64,000 bases of DNA from Catenuloplanes atrovinosus. GTDB lineage: Bacteria > Actinomycetota > Actinomycetes > Mycobacteriales > Micromonosporaceae. A program made the translations under genes and the position numbers. How positions within the stretch are numbered: the first letter of the stretch is position 1; every line of letters starts with the position of its first letter. Below, piece by piece: positions 3,284 to 61,418 of this stretch. The stretch is taken from assembly GCF_031458235.1 (NCBI RefSeq), contig NZ_JAVDYB010000001.1, forward strand, positions 8,085,001 to 8,149,000, written 5' to 3'. The notes below the pieces were generated by a model. It worked only from the letters and a program-made list of their open reading frames with translations. It did not search any database and was not told the DNA's origin.

Positions 3284-4663
3284 CTACAGGCCGTTGTTGC
3301 GGATGACCTCGGAGTAGAAGCGCGCGCTGTCCTTCGGGATGCGCCGCTGGGTGTGGTAGTCCACGTAGACCACACCGAACCGCTTCCGGTAGCCCTCGGC
3401 CCACTCGTAGTTGTCCATCAGCGACCACACGAAGTAGCCGCGAAGGTCCACGCCGCGCGCGATCGCGTCGTGGCAGGCGCGCAGGTGCCCGTCCAGGTAG
3501 GCGACCCGCTCCGCGTCCGGCACCCGCTCGCCGGTCTCGTCCGGCCCGGTCGGGTACGCCGCGCCGTTCTCCGTGATCATCATCGGCGTGCCCGGGTAGT
3601 CCCGGTGGATCCGCTCCAGCAGCCGGGTCAGCGCGGCCGGCTCGATCGCCCAGCCCATGTCGGTGACCGGGCCCGCCGCCGGCAGGAACTCGATGCCCTC
3701 GGTGCCCGGCGCGGTCGGGTTGCCCTCGATGCCGGGCTTCGAGCGCACGTAGGACGGCGAGTAGTAGTTGATGCCGAGCACGTCGATCGGCTGCCCGATC
3801 AGCGTCTCGTCGCCGGTGCGCAGCCAGCTCAGGTCGGAGAACCGGCGGATGTGCGCGAGCACGTCGTCCGGGTACGACCCGCGCAGGATCGGGTCGAAGA
3901 AGATCCGGTTCTGCAGGCCGTCGACCAGGTGCGCGGCGGCCACGTCCGCCTCGCTGTCCGGGTCGGCGGGGGAGACCGCGGCCGGGTTGAGCGTGATGCC
4001 GAGCTTCCGCACGCCCGCGTCGCGCAGCGCCCTGGTCGCCAGGCCGTGGCCGAGCAGCAGGTGGTGGACGGCCTTGAACGCGGACTCCGGGTCCTGGATG
4101 CCGGGGGCGTGCACGCCCGAGGCGTACCCGAGGTAGGCGGAGCACCACGGCTCGTTCAGCGTGGTCCAGGTCTCCACCCGGTCGCCGAGCCGCTTGTGCA
4201 CCGCCATCGCGTACTCCGCGAACGCCTCGGAGGTCTCCCGCGAGGTCCAGCCGCCCCGGTCCTCCAGCGTCTGCGGCAGGTCCCAGTGGTAGAGCGTGAC
4301 GACCGGGGTGATCCCCTTGCCGCGCAGCTCGTCCACGAGCCGGTCGTAGAAGTCGAGCCCGGCCGGGTTGACCGGGCCGGTGCCGTCCGGCTGGATCCGG
4401 GGCCAGGCGATGGAGAAGCGGTACGCCTGGAGCCCGAGCTCCGCCATCATGGCGACGTCGTCGCGCCACCGGTGGTAGTGGTCGCAGGCGACGTCACCGG
4501 TGTGTCCGGCGTAGACCTTGCCGGGCGTACGGCTGAACGTGTCCCAGATCGAGGGCCCGCGCCCGTCCTCGCGGGCGGCGCCCTCGATCTGGTAGGAGGC
4601 CGTGGCGGACCCCCAGAGGAAGCCCTCCGGGAACGTCACGCTCTGTGTTGAGGGGTTAGTCAC
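3284..4663 (-). CDS. GH1 family beta-glucosidase
   Basis: A 459-residue glycoside hydrolase family 1 enzyme that releases glucose from the non-reducing end of beta-glucosides. The acid/base glutamate is in TLNEP (E171) and the nucleophile in ITENG (E365). The N-terminal signature FLWGSATASYQIEGA is intact. No signal peptide is present, so it should act on imported di- or oligosaccharides. The start is GTG at 4663 without a strong Shine-Dalgarno sequence. It stands alone; no sugar transporter or regulator is adjacent. Confidence 0.95.
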   Translation of the reverse strand: MTNPSTQSVTFPEGFLWGSATASYQIEGAAREDGRGPSIWDTFSRTPGKVYAGHTGDVACDHYHRWRDDVAMMAELGLQAYRFSIAWPRIQPDGTGPVNPAGLDFYDRLVDELRGKGITPVVTLYHWDLPQTLEDRGGWTSRETSEAFAEYAMAVHKRLGDRVETWTTLNEPWCSAYLGYASGVHAPGIQDPESAFKAVHHLLLGHGLATRALRDAGVRKLGITLNPAAVSPADPDSEADVAAAHLVDGLQNRIFFDPILRGSYPDDVLAHIRRFSDLSWLRTGDETLIGQPIDVLGINYYSPSYVRSKPGIEGNPTAPGTEGIEFLPAAGPVTDMGWAIEPAALTRLLERIHRDYPGTPMMITENGAAYPTGPDETGERVPDAERVAYLDGHLRACHDAIARGVDLRGYFVWSLMDNYEWAEGYRKRFGVVYVDYHTQRRIPKDSARFYSEVIRNNGL

Positions 4664-17343: not shown

Positions 17344-17361
17344 GCAACCGGCCGATAACCG
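17344..17361 (+). promoter_or_regulatory. Possible direct-repeat activator box
   Basis: GCAACCG-4 bp-ATAACCG, 46 bp before the next start. It resembles the 11-bp-period box seen at flgB and flbD, but the second half has two differences. The string GCCGATAA inside it also looks like a FliA -10 without a -35, so its meaning is open. Confidence 0.35.
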
Positions 17362-21682: not shown

Positions 21683-21780
21683 TTTGCTCTGCTTACATCG
21701 ACGAACCAGCCCAAAGCCGCCGTCGGCGGCGCGCGAGTGGCGCCCGGCTTGGGCCGATTCGGTCAGGTAAGCAGAGCAAA
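21683..21780. repeat. 98-bp element bounded by inverted TTTGCTCTGCTTAC copies
   Basis: The left end TTTGCTCTGCTTAC (21683-21696) and the right end CAGGTAAGCAGAGCAAA (21764-21780) are inverted copies of the same sequence, flanking a GC-rich core. The same sequence recurs at 30.9 kb and 60.9 kb. It lies in the gap between the MFS and HxlR genes and shows no coding signal. Confidence 0.8.
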
Positions 21781-26304: not shown

Positions 26305-26327
<23 letters not shown>

Positions 26328-28356
26328 CGTTCACCACCCCCATGGTCTCGATCTGCGCGGTCGAACCGGCGATCTCGGAGTAGGACATGACCGCGGTCTT
26401 GCGCCCACCGGCCCGCAACAGCCGGTGCAGCGGCGGCCGCAGCTGCGGGGAGCAGGCCAGCACCGGGTTCGCGCCCTGCTGCTCCGCGTTCTCGGCATGC
26501 ATGCCGATCTGGTTCACCACGTTCTCGGCGAGCGCCGCGTCCAGCGCCAGGAACAGCCCGTTCTCGCTCGGCCGCAGCGACTCGAGCATGGCGTGCTCCA
26601 ACTGCGGGTCGAGCGTGATCACGGTGAGCGTGCCGCTCGTGGTGAACTGCTGCGCGATCGCCGGTCCGAGCGCGGCCCGGGCCGCCTCGACCAGGCCGTC
26701 GTGGTCGGTGGAGACCTTCGCGCGCAGCGACAGCGCCTCGAAGATGCGCACCAGGTCGCGGATGGCCACCCCCTCGTCCAGCAGCGACTGGAGCACGCGC
26801 TGGATCTGGCCGAGGCTGAGCAGCGACGGCGTCAGCTCCTCGACCACCACCGGGTGGGTGCGCTTGACGGTCTCGACCAGCGCGCGGACGTCCTCGCGGC
26901 CGAGCAGCCGGCTCGCGTTGGTGCGGACCACCTCGGCCAGGTGCGTGATGATCACCGAGGCGCGGTCGACCACGGTCGCGCCGGCCAGCTCCGCCTGGTA
27001 GTGCAGTTCGGCCGGGACCCACTTGCCGGCCAGCCCGAACACCGGCTCCACGCCGGCCCGGCCGGGCAGCGCGGAGAGGCCGTCGCCGATCGCGAGCACG
27101 GTGCCGGGCGGTGCCTGGCCGCGGCCGGTCTCCACGCCGCTGATCCGGATCGCGTACCCGGAGAGCGGCAATTCAAGATCATCGCGGGTGCGGACCGGGG
27201 GCATCACCACGCCGAGCTCCAGAGCGATCTTGCGGCGCAGCGCGCGGACCCGGTCCAGCAGGTCGCCGCCGGTCGGGTCGACCAGGTCCACCAGGTCGGG
27301 GGAGAGGGCCAGCTCCAGCGGGTCGACCCGCATCTCACCCATGATCGACTCGGTGGTGTCCGGGTTGACGGCCGCGGCGGCCGTACCGTCGGCCGCCTCG
27401 CCCGGCGCCGGCTCCTCCACCGGCGGCTTGAGCCGGGTGGACGCGAACAGCACCAGGCCGCCGACCAGCAGGAACGGCAGCTTCGGCAGGCCCGGGATCA
27501 CGCAGAGCGCCAGCGCGGCGCCGCCGCCGATCTGCAGCGCCAGCTTGTGCTGGCTGAGCTGCTTGGTGACGCTGCTGCCCATGTCGCCCTCGGTGGCCGA
27601 CCGGGTCACGATCAGACCGGTCGCCACCGACAGCAGCAGCGCCGGGATCTGCGACACCAGGCCGTCGCCGATGCTGAGCAGGCTGTACGTCTCGATCGCC
27701 TCGACCGGCGCCATGCCCTTCTGCAGCATGCCGACGCCGAAGCCGCCGATCAGGTTGATCAGCGTGATGATGATGGCCGCGATCGCGTCGCCCTTCACGA
27801 ACTTCGAGGCACCGTCCATCGCGCCGTAGAAGTCGGCCTCCGCGGAGACCTCGGAGCGCCGCTTCCGCGCCTCCGGCTCGTCGATCAGGCCCGCGTTCAG
27901 GTCCGCGTCGATCGCCATCTGCTTGCCCGGCATCGCGTCCAGCGTGAACCGGGCGCCGACCTCCGCGACCCGCTCCGCGCCCTTGGTCACCACGACCATC
28001 TGCACGATCACCAGGATGGTGAAGATGACCAGGCCGACGATGAGCGAGCCGCCGACCACGAAGTGACCGAACGCCTCGATCACCTTGCCGGCGAAGCCGT
28101 CCATCAGCACCAGCCGGGTCGCGCTGATGTTCAGCGCCAGCCGGAACAGCGTGAAGATCAGGAGTAGCGCCGGGAAGATCGAGAACTCCAGCGGCTTCTG
28201 GACGAACATGCTGACCAGGACGATCAGCAGCGCGCCGGTGATGTTCAGCGCGATCAGCATGTCCAGCAGCAGCGTCGGCAGCGGCACCACCATCATCACG
28301 ATGATGGCGATGACCCCGATCGGTACGGCCAACTGGCCCATCAGCCTGGTGTTCAC
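26305..28356 (-). CDS. flhA: Flagellar export gate protein FlhA
   Basis: 683 residues. The N-terminal half carries about eight membrane helices and the FHIPEP-family core (NITGALLIVLVSMFV, FPALLLIFTLFRLALNISATR, DADLNAGLID). The C-terminal ~330 residues form the cytoplasmic substrate-docking ring. It couples proton flow to export of flagellar subunits together with FlhB, FliP, FliQ and FliR. I prefer GTG at 28356 because GGAAGG lies just upstream; GTG at 28368 would add four residues. Confidence 0.95.
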
Positions 28357-28462
28357 GGCACCTTCCACGGGTGAGGGAATGTTCCCGGGCTGGTCCGTGC
28401 CCCTTGCCGAAGGTGCCGTCCTGGCGACGTTCCGATCGGCCGGTACGCGCGGAAGTTGAGCG

Positions 28463-29536
28463 TTATGCCGCCAGGCGGTGCGTGCCGGCCGCGGAGCCGC
28501 GGGACTTCAGGCTCATCACGAACGCCAGCACCTTGGCCACCGCGCCGTAGAACTCGGCCGGGATCTCGGTGCCGATCTCGCAGCTGCCGTAGAGCGCGCG
28601 GGCCAGCGGCACGTCCTGGATCATCGGGATGCGGTTCTCGGTGGCCAGGTCGCGGATCTTCTGCGCCACGTTGCCCTGCCCCTTGGCGATCACCCGGGGC
28701 GCGCCCTTCTCCGGCTCGTACCGCAGCGCGACCGCCACGTGCGTCGGGTTGACCAGCACCACGTCCGCCTTCGGCACGTCCGACATCATCCGGTTGCGCG
28801 CCATCGCGTGCTGCCGCGCCCGGATCTGCCCCTTGACGTGCGGGTCACCCTCGGTCTTCTTGTACTCCTCCTTCACCTCCTGCTTCGACATCTTCAGCTG
28901 TTTCATGGTGCGCATCTTCACGACGAAGTAGTCGGCCGCGGCCATCACCAGGCCGGCCAGCGCGGCCGTACGGATCAGCGCGATCGTCGCGTCCTTGACC
29001 ATGTCCAGCAGCACCGCGAGCGGCAGGTTGCCGGCCGTCATCAGCGACGGGATCAGGTCCTTGATCTGGAAGTACAGCACGGCGCCCAGCACCAGCGTCT
29101 TGACCAGCGCCTTGACGCCCTCCCAGAGCGCCTGCATACCGACGATCCGTTTGAAGCCCTGCAGCGGGTTGAGCCGGGAGAACTTCGGCATCAGCAGCTT
29201 GGTGGCGACGTGGATGCCGCCCTGCGCACCGGAGCCGGCGATGCCGATCAGCATCATCGAGACCGCGAGCGGCGCCACCGCGTACGCCGAGCCCAGCAGC
29301 CCGTCCCGGAACATGTTCAGCGCGGTGCCCACGTCCGGGTCGGTCATCACGTCCGGCACCCGCATCAGCGCCTCGCGCGACTTCTCGACCGCCTTCTCGA
29401 GCGTCATCGGCACCAGCACGCTGGCGGCCGCGATCCCGGCCCAGGCGCCCAGGTCGGGCGTCTTGCCGATCTGGCCCTCCTCGCGGGCCTTCTTGAGTTT
29501 CTGCGGTGTGGGTTTCTCGGTCTTCTCGCCGCTCAC
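28463..29536 (-). CDS. flhB: Flagellar export protein FlhB
   Basis: 357 residues: four membrane helices and a cytoplasmic C-terminal domain with the self-cleaving NPTH motif at residues 263-266 (VLVNPTHVAVALRY). Cleavage between N and P switches export from rod/hook to filament substrates. The N-terminal GEKTEKPTPQKLKKAREEGQI is the classic FlhB start. fliR lies 17 bp upstream in transcription, flhA 106 bp downstream. Confidence 0.96.
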   Translation of the reverse strand: MSGEKTEKPTPQKLKKAREEGQIGKTPDLGAWAGIAAASVLVPMTLEKAVEKSREALMRVPDVMTDPDVGTALNMFRDGLLGSAYAVAPLAVSMMLIGIAGSGAQGGIHVATKLLMPKFSRLNPLQGFKRIVGMQALWEGVKALVKTLVLGAVLYFQIKDLIPSLMTAGNLPLAVLLDMVKDATIALIRTAALAGLVMAAADYFVVKMRTMKQLKMSKQEVKEEYKKTEGDPHVKGQIRARQHAMARNRMMSDVPKADVVLVNPTHVAVALRYEPEKGAPRVIAKGQGNVAQKIRDLATENRIPMIQDVPLARALYGSCEIGTEIPAEFYGAVAKVLAFVMSLKSRGSAAGTHRLAA

Positions 29537-29553: not shown

Positions 29554-30321
29554 TCAGGCCCCGGAGAGCGTGACGACCGCGGTGACCGCCTTGTCGACGA
29601 TGGTGCTCAGCGCGCGGGGCAGCACCGCGATCGCGGTGCCGCCCAGCAACAGCACCAGGAAGATCTTGGCGGGGAAGCCCAGCGAGAACGCGTTGAGCGC
29701 CGGCGCGACGCGGTTGAGCAGGCCGAAGCCCACGTCCGTGAGGAACAGCACCGCGATCAGCGGGCCGGCGATCTGGATCGCGGCCAGGAACATGTCCGCC
29801 AGGCCGTCGGTGAGCAGCTTGGAGAGCGTCTCCAGGGAGAGCGTGTCGTTGAGCGGCAGCGTGGTGTAGGACATCATGAAGCCGCGCAGCACCAGCTGGT
29901 GCCCGTCCGTGGCGAACAGCAGCGTCACGGCGAGCAGGTTGTAGAACCGGCCGAAGATCGAGCTCTGCACCTGGGAGAGCGGGTCGAACGCCATCGCGAG
30001 CGTGAAGCCGCCGAACAGGTCGATCATGTCGCCGGCCGCCTGGATCGCGGCGAACAGCAGCGCGGTGAGGAAGCCGAGCGCCGCGCCGACCACCACCTGT
30101 TCCACCACGCTGATGAGAAGAGCCGATGTCGCCAGCTCCGGCACCTGACCGGCGAGCTTGGGCGACATCGGCAGGGCCAGCGCGAGCGCCAGCAGGGCCT
30201 TGATCCGTCCCGGAATGAGGCGGGAGTTGAACGGCGGGCAGAGCGCCAGCCACGCCGACGCGCGCACCATGGCGAGCAGCAGTGCCGTGAGGTTCGCGGT
30301 CTGGAGCTGCATCGACAACAT
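29554..30321 (-). CDS. fliR: Flagellar export gate protein FliR
   Basis: A 255-residue integral membrane protein with about six hydrophobic segments. Conserved FliR features include RIKALLALALAL near the N-terminus and DVGFGLLNRVAPALNAFSLGFPAKI near the C-terminus. It forms the export channel with FliP and FliQ. ATG at 30321; a second ATG at 30312 would also serve. It follows the downstream copy of fliQ by 18 bp. Confidence 0.94.
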   Translation of the reverse strand: MLSMQLQTANLTALLLAMVRASAWLALCPPFNSRLIPGRIKALLALALALPMSPKLAGQVPELATSALLISVVEQVVVGAALGFLTALLFAAIQAAGDMIDLFGGFTLAMAFDPLSQVQSSIFGRFYNLLAVTLLFATDGHQLVLRGFMMSYTTLPLNDTLSLETLSKLLTDGLADMFLAAIQIAGPLIAVLFLTDVGFGLLNRVAPALNAFSLGFPAKIFLVLLLGGTAIAVLPRALSTIVDKAVTAVVTLSGA

Positions 30322-30339
30322 CGCCCGGCCGGCTCCTGC

Positions 30340-30609
30340 CTACCCGAGAAGGCTCGGGATCCGATCGAAGAGGGTGTGCGTGAAGGACAGCATCTCGTGC
30401 AGCATCCAGTTGCCGCTGACCAGCAACGCGACGCCGCAGGCGATGGCCTTGGGCACGAAGCTGAGCGTAGCCTCCTGGATCTGGGTCACGGACTGGAACA
30501 GCGAAATGGCGAAGCCGATGGCCAACGCGGTGAGCAGCACGGGCGCGCACAGCTTGGCCGCGATGGTCATAGCCTCAAGCCCGAGGTGCACAACCTGCGT
30601 GTCGGTCAT
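30340..30609 (-). CDS. fliQ: Flagellar export gate protein FliQ, downstream copy
   Basis: 89 residues, two membrane helices, standard FliQ (MTIAAKLCAPVLLTALAIGF, FVPKAIACGVALLV). It differs from the second copy at 31331-31600 only at two residues near the C-terminus (HT instead of QG), while the DNA differs at roughly 20 of 270 positions, mostly silent. About 110 bp upstream of the start are also related between the copies. This copy is next to fliR. Confidence 0.95.
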   Translation of the reverse strand: MTDTQVVHLGLEAMTIAAKLCAPVLLTALAIGFAISLFQSVTQIQEATLSFVPKAIACGVALLVSGNWMLHEMLSFTHTLFDRIPSLLG

Positions 30610-30695
30610 AGTCCGCCTTCCGTCGGTTTCCGCGGTGGCTCGTGCCCCGCTGAGAACTACTCTCCGCCACCACCGTCGCGGCCCGGTTACCCGCC

Positions 30696-30713
30696 CGGTC
30701 GCCACTCGGTAGC
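30696..30713 (-). promoter_or_regulatory. Possible activator box upstream of the downstream fliQ
   Basis: Read on the minus strand: GCTACCG-AGTG-GCGACCG, two half-sites 11 bp apart, 87 bp before the fliQ start. It matches the flgB and flbD boxes. No clear CTCA -35 follows; the -10 candidate is only partial (GCGGAGA). Confidence 0.4.
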
Positions 30714-30719
30714 AGCCCG

Positions 30720-31284
30720 CCACGTCTTCGCCCCCGCTCGTCCGCCGCCGAGCGGTCCGCCCGACCCGCTGCCGAACGATCCGCCCGGCATCCGTCCGCG
30801 CCGTCCCGCGAGGCCGCCGCCCATGCCACGGGATTCCCGCGTCGTCCCTCCGCGCCGGACGCACTCCCGCCCGCCTTTGCTCTGCTTACCTGCACGAAAG
30901 GGGCCGAAACGGGCACGGCCGGTGGGCGGTCGCCCTGCGGCTTTCGCGGCGGTTTGGTGTTGTAAACAGAGCAAATCCGTCCGGTAAGCAGAGCAAAGGC
31001 GTCAGGTAAGCAGAGCAAAGCCGCGGGGGTACGCGGGTGGCGGGCGACGGGCGGCAGGGGGGACGTCGGCGGGTGCGGGTGGAGGGGGCGCGTGGCGGGA
31101 GGTGAGGGAGGCGGGAATCGCGTGCGGGTTTCGGTGACCAGCGGCGGCTCCGGACGGCGGACCGGAGCGGAGCGCCAGCGGAGTCGGAGGGGAGCTGGAG
31201 GTTGGCCCGCGGGAGCGTGCGGAGGGTGACCGCGCCGGGAGCGGGAAGATCTAGATCTTGGGCCTTCGCGAGAGGCGGAAGGGG
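30720..31284. other. Intergenic region between the two fliQ copies
   Basis: About 560 bp of extremely GC-rich sequence without a credible gene. It holds an interrupted repeat cluster (30876-31019) and a perfect 14-bp palindrome, AAGATCTAGATCTT, at 31246-31259. Codon statistics in all frames look like shadow frames, and no Shine-Dalgarno precedes any start. Confidence 0.6.
30876..31019. repeat. Cluster of TTTGCTCTGCTTACCTG repeats (one forward, three inverted)
   Basis: TTTGCTCTGCTTACCTG at 30876-30892. Inverted copies are at 31003-31019 (exact), 30982-30997 (one difference) and around 30961-30975 (degenerate). The forward and exact inverted copies bound a 144-bp element of the same type as that at 21683-21780. 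Confidence 0.8.
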
Positions 31285-31316
31285 GCAGGGCCCGGGTGGG
31301 GGAACCCGGGCCCTGC
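31285..31316 (-). terminator. Hairpin after the upstream fliQ copy
   Basis: Perfect 13-bp stem GCAGGGCCCGGGT / ACCCGGGCCCTGC, 15 bp after the stop of the 31331-31600 fliQ. It suggests that much of the fliP-fliQ transcript ends here and that the second fliQ needs its own promoter. Confidence 0.65.
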
Positions 31317-31330
31317 GTGGGGGAGACGTG

Positions 31331-31600
31331 TCAGCCGAGCAGGCTGGGGATGCGGTCGAAGAGGCCCTGGGTGAAGGACAGCATCTCGTGCAGCATCCAG
31401 TTGCCGCTGACCAGCAGCGCGACGCCGCAGGCGATGGCCTTGGGGACGAAGCTGAGCGTGGCCTCCTGGATCTGGGTCACGGACTGGAACAGCGAGATGG
31501 CGAAGCCGATGGCCAGCGCGGTGAGCAGCACGGGCGCGCAGAGCTTGGCGGCGATGGTCATCGCCTCGAGCCCGAGGTGCACAACCTGCGTGTCCGTCAT
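31331..31600 (-). CDS. fliQ: Flagellar export gate protein FliQ, upstream copy
   Basis: 89 residues, two helices, intact. It ends SFTQGLFDRIPSLLG, where the other copy has HT for QG. It follows fliP by 108 bp, the normal fliP-fliQ order, whereas the other copy is next to fliR. Silent differences between the copies exceed replacements, so both appear to be under selection. FliQ surrounds the FliP/FliR channel in four copies, so two isoforms could mix in one gate. Confidence 0.95.
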   Translation of the reverse strand: MTDTQVVHLGLEAMTIAAKLCAPVLLTALAIGFAISLFQSVTQIQEATLSFVPKAIACGVALLVSGNWMLHEMLSFTQGLFDRIPSLLG

Positions 31601-31708
31601 GTTCCGCCTTTCGCCGAGTGGTCGCGGCGCTCGTGCGCCGCTGAGTAGTACTCTCCGGCACCGGCGTGGCGGAACGGGTTCCGGCCGAGTGGCCGATCGG
31701 TAGCAGCG

Positions 31709-32485
31709 TCAGCCGTAGCTGCCGACGAGCGCGGTGATGATCAGGCTCCAGCCGTCGACGAGCACGAAGAGCAGCAGTTTGAACGGCAGCGCCACGGTCA
31801 CCGGCGGCAGCATCATCATGCCCAGCGACATCAGCGACGCGGACACCACGATGTCGATGATGAGGAACGGGATGAAGATGACGAAGCCGATGATGAAGGC
31901 GGCGCGCAGCTCGGACAGGATGAACGCGGGCACCAGGGTGGTCAGCGGCACGGCGTCCGGGTTGGCCGGGCGCTCCTCGTTCGCGACCTTGGTGAACAGC
32001 GCGATCTCGTCCGGCCGGGTGTGATCCAGCATCCAGGCGCGCAGCGGCTGCACGCCGTCGTTGAACGCCTGGGTCTGGTCCTTGTCGCCGCTGAGGTAGG
32101 GCTGCACGCCGGCCGCGTTCACCTCGGACAGCACCGGGCTCATGATGAAGAACGTGATGAACAGGGCCAGACCGGCGATGACCTGGTTCGGCGGCATCGA
32201 GGTGAGGCCGAGCGCGTTCCGGGTGATGCCGAGGACCATGAAGATCTTGGTGAAGGCCGTGCAGAGCAGCAGCAGCGCGGGCGCCACGGAGAGCAGCGTC
32301 AGGCCGATCAGCAGCACGATCGAGGTGCTCGGCTGACCGGCGTCGCCACCACCGTTGATGTTGATGTCGATGGTCCCGGGGTCGGTCGGCTGCGGTGCGG
32401 GCGCGGCGCCGGCCGCCGCCGGACCGCTCAGCACCAGCAGGCAGCCGAGCAGGACGACCAGTGCGGTGGTGCGCCTCGCGGTCAT
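31709..32485 (-). CDS. fliP: Flagellar export gate protein FliP
   Basis: 258 residues with a cleavable signal peptide (ALVVLLGCLLVLSGPAAAGA), as is normal for FliP, then four membrane helices with TAFTKIFMVLGITRNALGLTSMPPNQV and MSLGMMMLPPVTVALPFKLLLFVLVDGW. It is the main pore-forming subunit of the export gate. ATG at 32485 overlaps the fliO stop by 4 bp. Confidence 0.95.
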   Translation of the reverse strand: MTARRTTALVVLLGCLLVLSGPAAAGAAPAPQPTDPGTIDININGGGDAGQPSTSIVLLIGLTLLSVAPALLLLCTAFTKIFMVLGITRNALGLTSMPPNQVIAGLALFITFFIMSPVLSEVNAAGVQPYLSGDKDQTQAFNDGVQPLRAWMLDHTRPDEIALFTKVANEERPANPDAVPLTTLVPAFILSELRAAFIIGFVIFIPFLIIDIVVSASLMSLGMMMLPPVTVALPFKLLLFVLVDGWSLIITALVGSYG

Positions 32486-52428: not shown

Positions 52429-52446
52429 CGGTTGCCATTTGGTTGC
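52429..52446 (-). promoter_or_regulatory. Activator-type box between fliA and flgN
   Basis: Minus strand GCAACCA-AATG-GCAACCG, half-sites 11 bp apart. The orientation matches that of the flgB and flbD boxes and points toward fliA, whose start is 98 bp away. Confidence 0.6.
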
Positions 52447-60919: not shown

Positions 60920-61223
60920 TTTGCTCTGCTTACCTGCCCGCGGGTGGCGCCACGTTGCTGCGCTTACCTGCGCGCGGCGGGTGCCGCTTCGCTCTGCGTG
61001 CGTGCCCGCGCCGGGAGTGGCTTTGCTCTGCTTACCTGCCCGCGCGGGGAGTGGCTTTGCTCTGCTTACCTGCCCGGGCCGGGAGTGGCTTTGCTCTGCT
61101 TACCTGCCCGCGCGAGTGGCTTTGCTCTGCCTACCTACCCGGGCCGGGGGCGGCTTTGCTCTGCTCACGTGCTTGCGGGCGGGTGCCGGTTCGCTCTGCT
61201 TACTTGGCGGAACGGCGCCGCCC
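60920..61223. repeat. 34-bp tandem repeat array, about nine units
   Basis: Units start at 60920, 60954, 60988, 61022, 61056, 61090, 61121, 61155 and 61190. Each begins with TTTGCTCTGCTTACCTG or a variant, followed by a CCCGCG..GGAGTGGC-type tail. Six starts are exactly 34 bp apart. The middle units are the best conserved, the edges degenerate, so the array probably grew from the centre. The same 17-mer occurs at 21.7 and 30.9 kb. No gene is visible from 60856 to 61440. Confidence 0.9.
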
Positions 61224-61401
61224 TGTTGTGCTTGCTGCCCAGTGACCGGTGCCGGTTCGCTTGGCCGGTCGAAACGGGCGCCACGGGCGCTCCCGTCGGC
61301 CGGCCGGACGAGGACCGCGGGCGCCGCACGCCATCCCGGTCAGGTGCCGCCGGCGCGCGCGAGGCGCGTCGCGGCCGCGTTCCGTCTGGGGTGATTTGTT
61401 C

Positions 61402-61418
61402 AGGTAAGCAGAGCAAAT
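61402..61418. repeat. Inverted copy closing the 60.9-kb array
   Basis: CAGGTAAGCAGAGCAAA, the exact reverse complement of the array's 17-mer, about 180 bp beyond the last unit. Together they form an element bounded by inverted copies, as at the other two loci. Confidence 0.85.

Follow-up and report, generated by a model that had tools for sequence, protein, structure and literature searches.

Duplicated fliQ in a flagellar export-gate operon of Catenuloplanes atrovinosus and relocated fliQ copies in Actinoplanes sensu lato

Introduction

Among the closest described systems for the locus presented here is the canonical fliP-fliQ-fliR operon, with which it shares both its gene order and its protein family. 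A single operonic fliQ is found in the loci of Pilimelia, Dactylosporangium, Virgisporangium, Planosporangium, Spirilliplanes and M. pattaloongensis. The window genus differs from the canonical operon by having two fliQ genes, each behind a promoter-like region, and Actinoplanes sensu lato differs from it by having no fliQ in the operon. Throughout this text, "the window" is the whole 64,000-nucleotide stretch of Catenuloplanes atrovinosus DNA that was analyzed. In the accessible text of a survey of actinobacterial flagella, FliQ is treated as a universal single-copy marker (mBio 2023, PMC10746217). It also mentions that one or two flagellar genes are found away from the cluster in very few cases (its Fig. 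S3), fliQ perhaps among them. The literature searched gave no report of a fliQ that is duplicated or relocated; the paper on the flagellar cluster of Actinoplanes missouriensis (J Bacteriol 2016, PMC4966450) may place the gene.

There is also a described class of duplicated prokaryotic genes that evolve in concert, among them tuf and fla. The survey of this class names 26 genes, and fliQ is absent from the accessible part of its main text (PMC6053082). As far as that part describes these genes, the fliQ of Actinoplanes is like them in that the copies within a genome are closer than copies between genomes, probably through gene conversion; the window genus differs, since its paralogues are on average more distant than its orthologues. 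Another useful comparison is with the TcrA regulon of A. missouriensis, whose TcrA box is given in the accessible text of its description as nnGCA(A/C)CCG-n4-GCA(A/C)CCGn (PMC12691653). The likeness to that regulon, so described, is a direct repeat before the gene; the difference is that the box in the window is imperfect, a candidate site for TcrA.

The fliQ pair of the window

The fliQ matches in the whole genome, a single 8.9-Mb contig, number exactly two, and both are in the export-gate operon of the window (Table 1). On the minus strand the order is fliP, fliQ1, a 721-bp gap, fliQ2, fliR, flhB and flhA, the last being an open reading frame which we take to be flhA from its position and sequence. 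A preliminary description of this DNA had reported two fliQ genes here, differing at 2 of 89 residues and about 20 nucleotides, with a 720-bp spacer and a duplicated unit of roughly 380 bp that includes a related upstream region. Both 89-residue reading frames are indeed where that description put them, and there are 21 differences between the copies over 270 nucleotides and 2 over 89 residues, with Gln78 and Gly79 in copy 1 replaced by His78 and Thr79 in copy 2 in the protein alignment. The spacer was off by a single base pair. The unit, upstream region included, comes to about 373 bp.

Table 1. Features of the fliQ region, in window positions
Feature	Position	Strand	Basis
fliQ copy 1, 89 aa, after fliP	31331..31600	-	TIGR01402, 93.6 bits; PF01313
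fliQ copy 2, 89 aa, before fliR	30340..30609	-	TIGR01402, 94.3 bits; PF01313
fliP	31709..32485	-	family-model match
fliR	29554..30321	-	family-model match
flhB	28463..29536	-	family-model match
flhA (presumed)	26305..28368	-	open reading frame list; position and sequence
Intergenic region between fliP and fliQ1, upstream part of the duplicated unit, presumed promoter	31601..31708	-	repeat; box degenerate, best 11/14 elsewhere
Matching region before fliQ2, presumed promoter of fliQ2-fliR-flhB-flhA	30610..30717	-	repeat, motif score
TcrA-box-like direct repeat GCTACCG-AGTG-GCGACCG	30696..30713	-	12/14 consensus positions
Hairpin after fliQ1, 13-bp perfect, possible terminator	31285..31316	-	sequence inspection
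Spacer part, dispersed genomic repeat	31081..31260		repeat search of own genome
Spacer part with inverted and tandem TTTGCTCTGCTTAC motifs, dispersed repeat	30872..31019		motif counts

The repeat itself is direct and has a constant offset of 991 bp. Its main block pairs 30344-30625 with 31335-31616 (282 nt, 92% identity), and a second block at the same offset pairs 30638-30716 with 31629-31707 (79 nt, 78% identity). The repeat spans the region from the fliP stop codon to the last fliQ codons, and the duplicated unit is thus the fliP-fliQ intergenic region plus fliQ.

Both proteins score above the 88.9-bit cut-off of TIGR01402, the NCBIfam model for fliQ, and match PF01313 with 94.8 and 95.6 bits against a cut-off of 25, both cut-offs being curated and the matches full-length. 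The injectisome models stayed below their own cut-offs for these proteins, and the context is flagellar, with fliP, fliR and flhB adjoining the two copies. In sequence, the two proteins resemble solved FliQ chains.

The spacer between the copies was considered as a special element in its own right, a possibility that was rejected on finding it made up largely of dispersed repeats. With 40 of 590 candidates scored, at least 54 further matches to it were found elsewhere in the genome. Most of these fall within 31081-31260, and the matches to the repeat in that interval are mostly about 105-180 bp long. The 14-mer TTTGCTCTGCTTAC has 67 exact copies in the genome and none in the reversed control. 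No sign of a function for fliQ was seen in the spacer sequence.

The distribution of this 14-mer can be described a little further. It often occurs in inverted pairs about 50-230 bp apart or in tandem arrays, many of them between 7.5 and 8.5 Mb, and in the window it is found at 21683-21780 and 60920-61417 besides 30876-31019 in the fliQ spacer. It is present in the fliQ spacer of the other genomes of the genus as well, where one of them, G001, shows one arm only, and it occurs four times beside the standalone fliQ of Actinoplanes sp. NBRC 103695 (L102, 5680-5909).

Conservation and constraint in the window genus

Five genomes of the window genus (g1) were examined, including that of the window, and all five have both fliQ copies between fliP and fliR. 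In G001 the pair is split over two contigs, with the copies at contig ends and gaps in both. These gaps look like assembly errors, and G001 was for this reason dropped from the distance counts and the fliQ trees; it was retained in the FliP-FliR tree. The contig ends and gaps of G001 are the kind of evidence that could make the whole duplication an artefact of assembly or annotation. Such an artefact is refuted by independent assemblies: the window genome is one contig, and three more genomes, each in one or two contigs, have distinct spacers (697, 620 and 588 bp between the coding sequences) and distinct copies. We give this explanation practically no weight.

In the four well assembled genomes, dS averages 0.31 between the two copies in a genome (range 0.22-0.49) and 0.17 between orthologues (range 0.08-0.24), the two ranges overlapping at 0.22-0.24. 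For dN/dS the copies give 0.046-0.154 and the orthologues 0.065-0.221, and all eight copies are free of frameshifts. The fliQ tree recovers a clade of the Q2 copies (support 74) and one of all eight g1 copies taken together (support 89); the Q1 copies form no clade. The duplication is old in this genus and both copies are constrained. The preliminary description had supposed as much from the silent differences in one genome, and neither of the findings that it named as contrary evidence, a single copy in close relatives with signs of an artefact or a dN/dS near 1 for one copy, turned up in the comparison.

How alike the copies are kept is a more subtle matter. There are 49 variable fliQ sites in the genus, 7 of which are fixed by copy and 6 of which have the same pattern in both copies, the latter including all three positions of codon 74. 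This codon reads Leu, Met, Ile or Thr in the four genomes and is identical in both copies within each. The pattern suggests that local gene conversion may have acted in g1, with the hints found mainly at codons 65 and 74. When the pairing of copies was permuted, the true pairing was the best of 24, yet with only 84 versus 86 mismatches, and a permutation of site order gave p = 0.31. Concerted evolution was consequently rejected as the main story for g1: the orthologues are on average closer than the paralogues by the mean dS values above, and the conversion tests are weak.

The same residues bear on a further proposal of the preliminary description, that the two genes encode two FliQ isoforms. 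Specialized copies would differ in function or timing and would give mixed export gates. The proteins do differ, by 2 residues in the window and by 2-3 in the other three genomes, and a D/E difference between copies at residue 82 recurs in three of the four genomes, the window not being one of them. However, the differences are confined to the variable C-terminal part (residues 78-84), the pair at 78-79 that marks each copy in the window is not common across the genus, and at residue 74 the two copies agree within each of the four genomes. Since codon 74 is alike within each genome and varies between genomes, this stretch looks kept alike rather than specialized. The isoform proposal did not hold up well here, and we think it quite unlikely.

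The upstream regions and the hairpin

A TcrA-box-like repeat was scored as the best match, out of 14 consensus positions, in the 115 nt before each fliQ. A score of at least 12 is reached by 7 of the 8 g1 copies and 67 of the 76 standalone Actinoplanes copies, and by 2 of 24 other operonic fliQ genes, these two belonging to Spirilliplanes and a MAG; the corresponding fraction of dinucleotide shuffles is 0-0.9%. In the window it is copy 2 that carries the 12/14 box. Copy 1 of the window is the sole exception among the eight g1 copies; its best score, 11/14, falls at another position. In g1 the distance from the box to the fliQ start is about 105 bp, compared with about 60-71 bp in most copies of Actinoplanes. 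Given this difference in distance and the degenerate box of copy 1 in the window, the promoters of g1 and of Actinoplanes need not be one inherited element.

Box-like sites with at most 2 mismatches number 20 in the window, where 9.54 (sd 3.18) are expected. Those at 17344-17361 and 52429-52446 are followed, after about 65-120 bp, by likely start codons of other genes.

Downstream of fliQ1 the preliminary description had noted a hairpin, and it is there, with 13 perfect pairs between the arms 31285-31297 and 31304-31316 and 6 nt between them. The hairpin is without a T-run in the window, has one in the relative G004, and is not visible in G003. A terminator scan of the region did not call it. 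The sigma-70 promoter scan gave no hit, other types of promoter being outside its coverage. A search of 30300-31760 against Rfam gave no match near a gathering score; two matches far below such scores both fall on the hairpin. With a promoter-like region before each copy and a possible terminator between them, the fliQ pair probably divides the operon into two predicted transcription units, so that a fliQ would belong to each.

fliQ outside the operon in Actinoplanes sensu lato

A fliQ match was found in 93 of the 354 genomes of the family. Among the copies examined outside the window genus and Actinoplanes sensu lato (g29), fliQ adjoins other export genes. The arrangement in g29 is very different from that of the canonical operon. 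All 22 of its fliP loci have fliR directly after fliP, the two genes not being separated by a fliQ, and none of the 76 fliQ copies collected has fliP or fliR in its flanks, which were searched for at most about 6 kb on each side and for less at contig ends. The standalone copies are found at several distinct intergenic sites that are common to different species. Of 20 genomes, 10 carry a copy at site A, next to a VOC-family gene (in G112 about 1.3 kb away from that gene), and 3 carry one at site F, next to pdxS; both sites are also seen in empty versions. A hairpin with a T-run follows 41 of the 76 standalone copies, compared with 2 of 76 shuffles.

Two or more full copies are present in 20 of the 67 g29 genomes with a match, 16 having two and 4 having three, and fliP is single in all 25 genomes tested (22 of g29 and 3 of g58). 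Another genome, G122, has one fliQ plus a broken fragment of 27 residues with one stop (L277, about 4250-4330), perhaps the relic of a lost copy. In the remaining 46 of the 67 there is one fliQ match, some of these genomes being draft assemblies, which indicates that two copies are not generally needed. This count also speaks for another explanation of the g1 pair, in which the duplicate is redundant: it would be kept for the upstream region of copy 2, serving as the promoter of fliR-flhB-flhA, and the second coding sequence would add nothing. The duplicated upstream region does lie directly before fliQ2-fliR-flhB-flhA. A coding sequence that adds nothing, however, is hard to square with a dN/dS well below 1 for both copies across the genus and with the intact frames of all eight copies in the well assembled genomes. 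We therefore find the redundant duplicate doubtful, if still worth keeping in mind.

The copies in Actinoplanes are alike within nearly every multicopy genome. Four sets of genomes were compared, chosen for sharing two fliQ sites; in A. regularis one site was matched on the left flank only. Within a genome the coding sequences differ by 0-3.4% across these four sets, with G125 standing out at 12.5%. Between genomes, the difference at a shared site averages 10-14%, the lowest single pair differing by 1.5%. In the tree, the copies group by genome in 19 of the 20 multicopy genomes, which is the pattern of concerted evolution; G125 is the exception. The FastTree supports for the by-genome clades are 0.78-1.0 where given, with none printed for four of them.

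Where the likeness ends along the sequence is telling. In a check for conversion, identical fliQ coding sequences were found without their promoters always being identical. Coding identity is 99.2, 100 and 98.5% in A. aureus, A. flavus and G097, respectively, and the identity of the 60 bp upstream is 55, 68 and 68%. In most other multicopy genomes the nearest 60 bp upstream are alike too, at 83-100%, and the likeness falls off further out. Near-identical coding sequences behind such dissimilar upstream regions in the first three genomes point to gene conversion: recent copying of the whole cassette fails to give this pattern, and conversion of the gene does give it.

The alternative is that the likeness comes from frequent fresh insertion or duplication and not from conversion. 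The patchy occupancy of sites A and F would fit it, as would the fliQ relic of G122 and the several genomes in which part of the upstream region is alike as well. So would Actinoplanes sp. TFC3, where two identical fliQ genes (L127 and L128) have matching flanks and point in opposite directions at a distance of about 20 kb, apparently through a recent inverted duplication; this genome counts among the 19 with by-genome grouping. Against this, the copies in A. aureus, A. flavus and G097 are not alike beyond the coding sequence, with promoters and flanks that differ, and identical pairs of sites recur in several species. Fresh insertion as the general source of the likeness is in our judgment unlikely, and we continue with gene conversion.

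A proposed history of the fliQ cassettes

Known export gates contain about five FliP, four FliQ and one FliR. The explanation that we lean towards, as rather probable, is that of a promoter-gene cassette which divides the g1 operon into two units and has a role in the supply of FliQ. Before g1 radiated, the fliP-fliQ intergenic region and fliQ would have been tandemly duplicated inside the export-gate operon, and the junction between the copies would later have been filled by intergenic repeats. The upstream part resembles a TcrA-type promoter of the spore program, which suggests that fliQ had become a self-contained promoter-gene cassette. The first unit of the operon would then be fliM-fliN-fliO-fliP-fliQ1 and the second fliQ2-fliR-flhB-flhA, both having a fliQ of their own and, before it, a promoter region; promoter activity, two transcripts and use at the time of sporulation are predictions made from the DNA. 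Both copies would make the same working FliQ, and they may raise or safeguard its supply during the brief time when the spores, presumed to be motile in this genus, build flagella. We infer dosage or security of this kind as the reason that both copies have been kept. In Actinoplanes the same kind of cassette would have left the operon, moved among intergenic sites and been kept alike by gene conversion.

The relationship between the two forms can be approached through a tree of FliP and FliR, which left out five loci duplicating named ones as well as loci with a short FliP or FliR. In this tree g1 adjoins Actinoplanes and Spirilliplanes, with grouping supports of 92-100 that are approximate and were read after re-rooting. 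The preliminary description had placed the window among Actinoplanes, from which its genus is distinct. Spirilliplanes, which groups with Actinoplanes in the tree, keeps one operonic fliQ with a box-like repeat, and for that reason the duplication in g1 was probably an event separate from the relocation in Actinoplanes. The simplest order would be that fliQ gained a spore-type promoter, followed by duplication in place in g1 and a separate move out of the operon in Actinoplanes.

More tentatively, and as a possibility only, the picture may extend to motile-spore Micromonosporaceae in general. An autonomous, spore-regulated fliQ cassette would in these bacteria duplicate, leave the operon and undergo conversion because a supply of FliQ separate from that of FliP and FliR would limit gate assembly; g1 would represent the in-operon form and Actinoplanes the dispersed form. 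A fliQ that is duplicated, unlinked and converted in one clade breaks the assumptions that the gene is single-copy and lies between fliP and fliR, as it does in the other relatives examined, and flagellar phylogenies using FliQ are affected. The clade also serves as a natural experiment on the question of whether one gate subunit needs to be supplied in step with the others.
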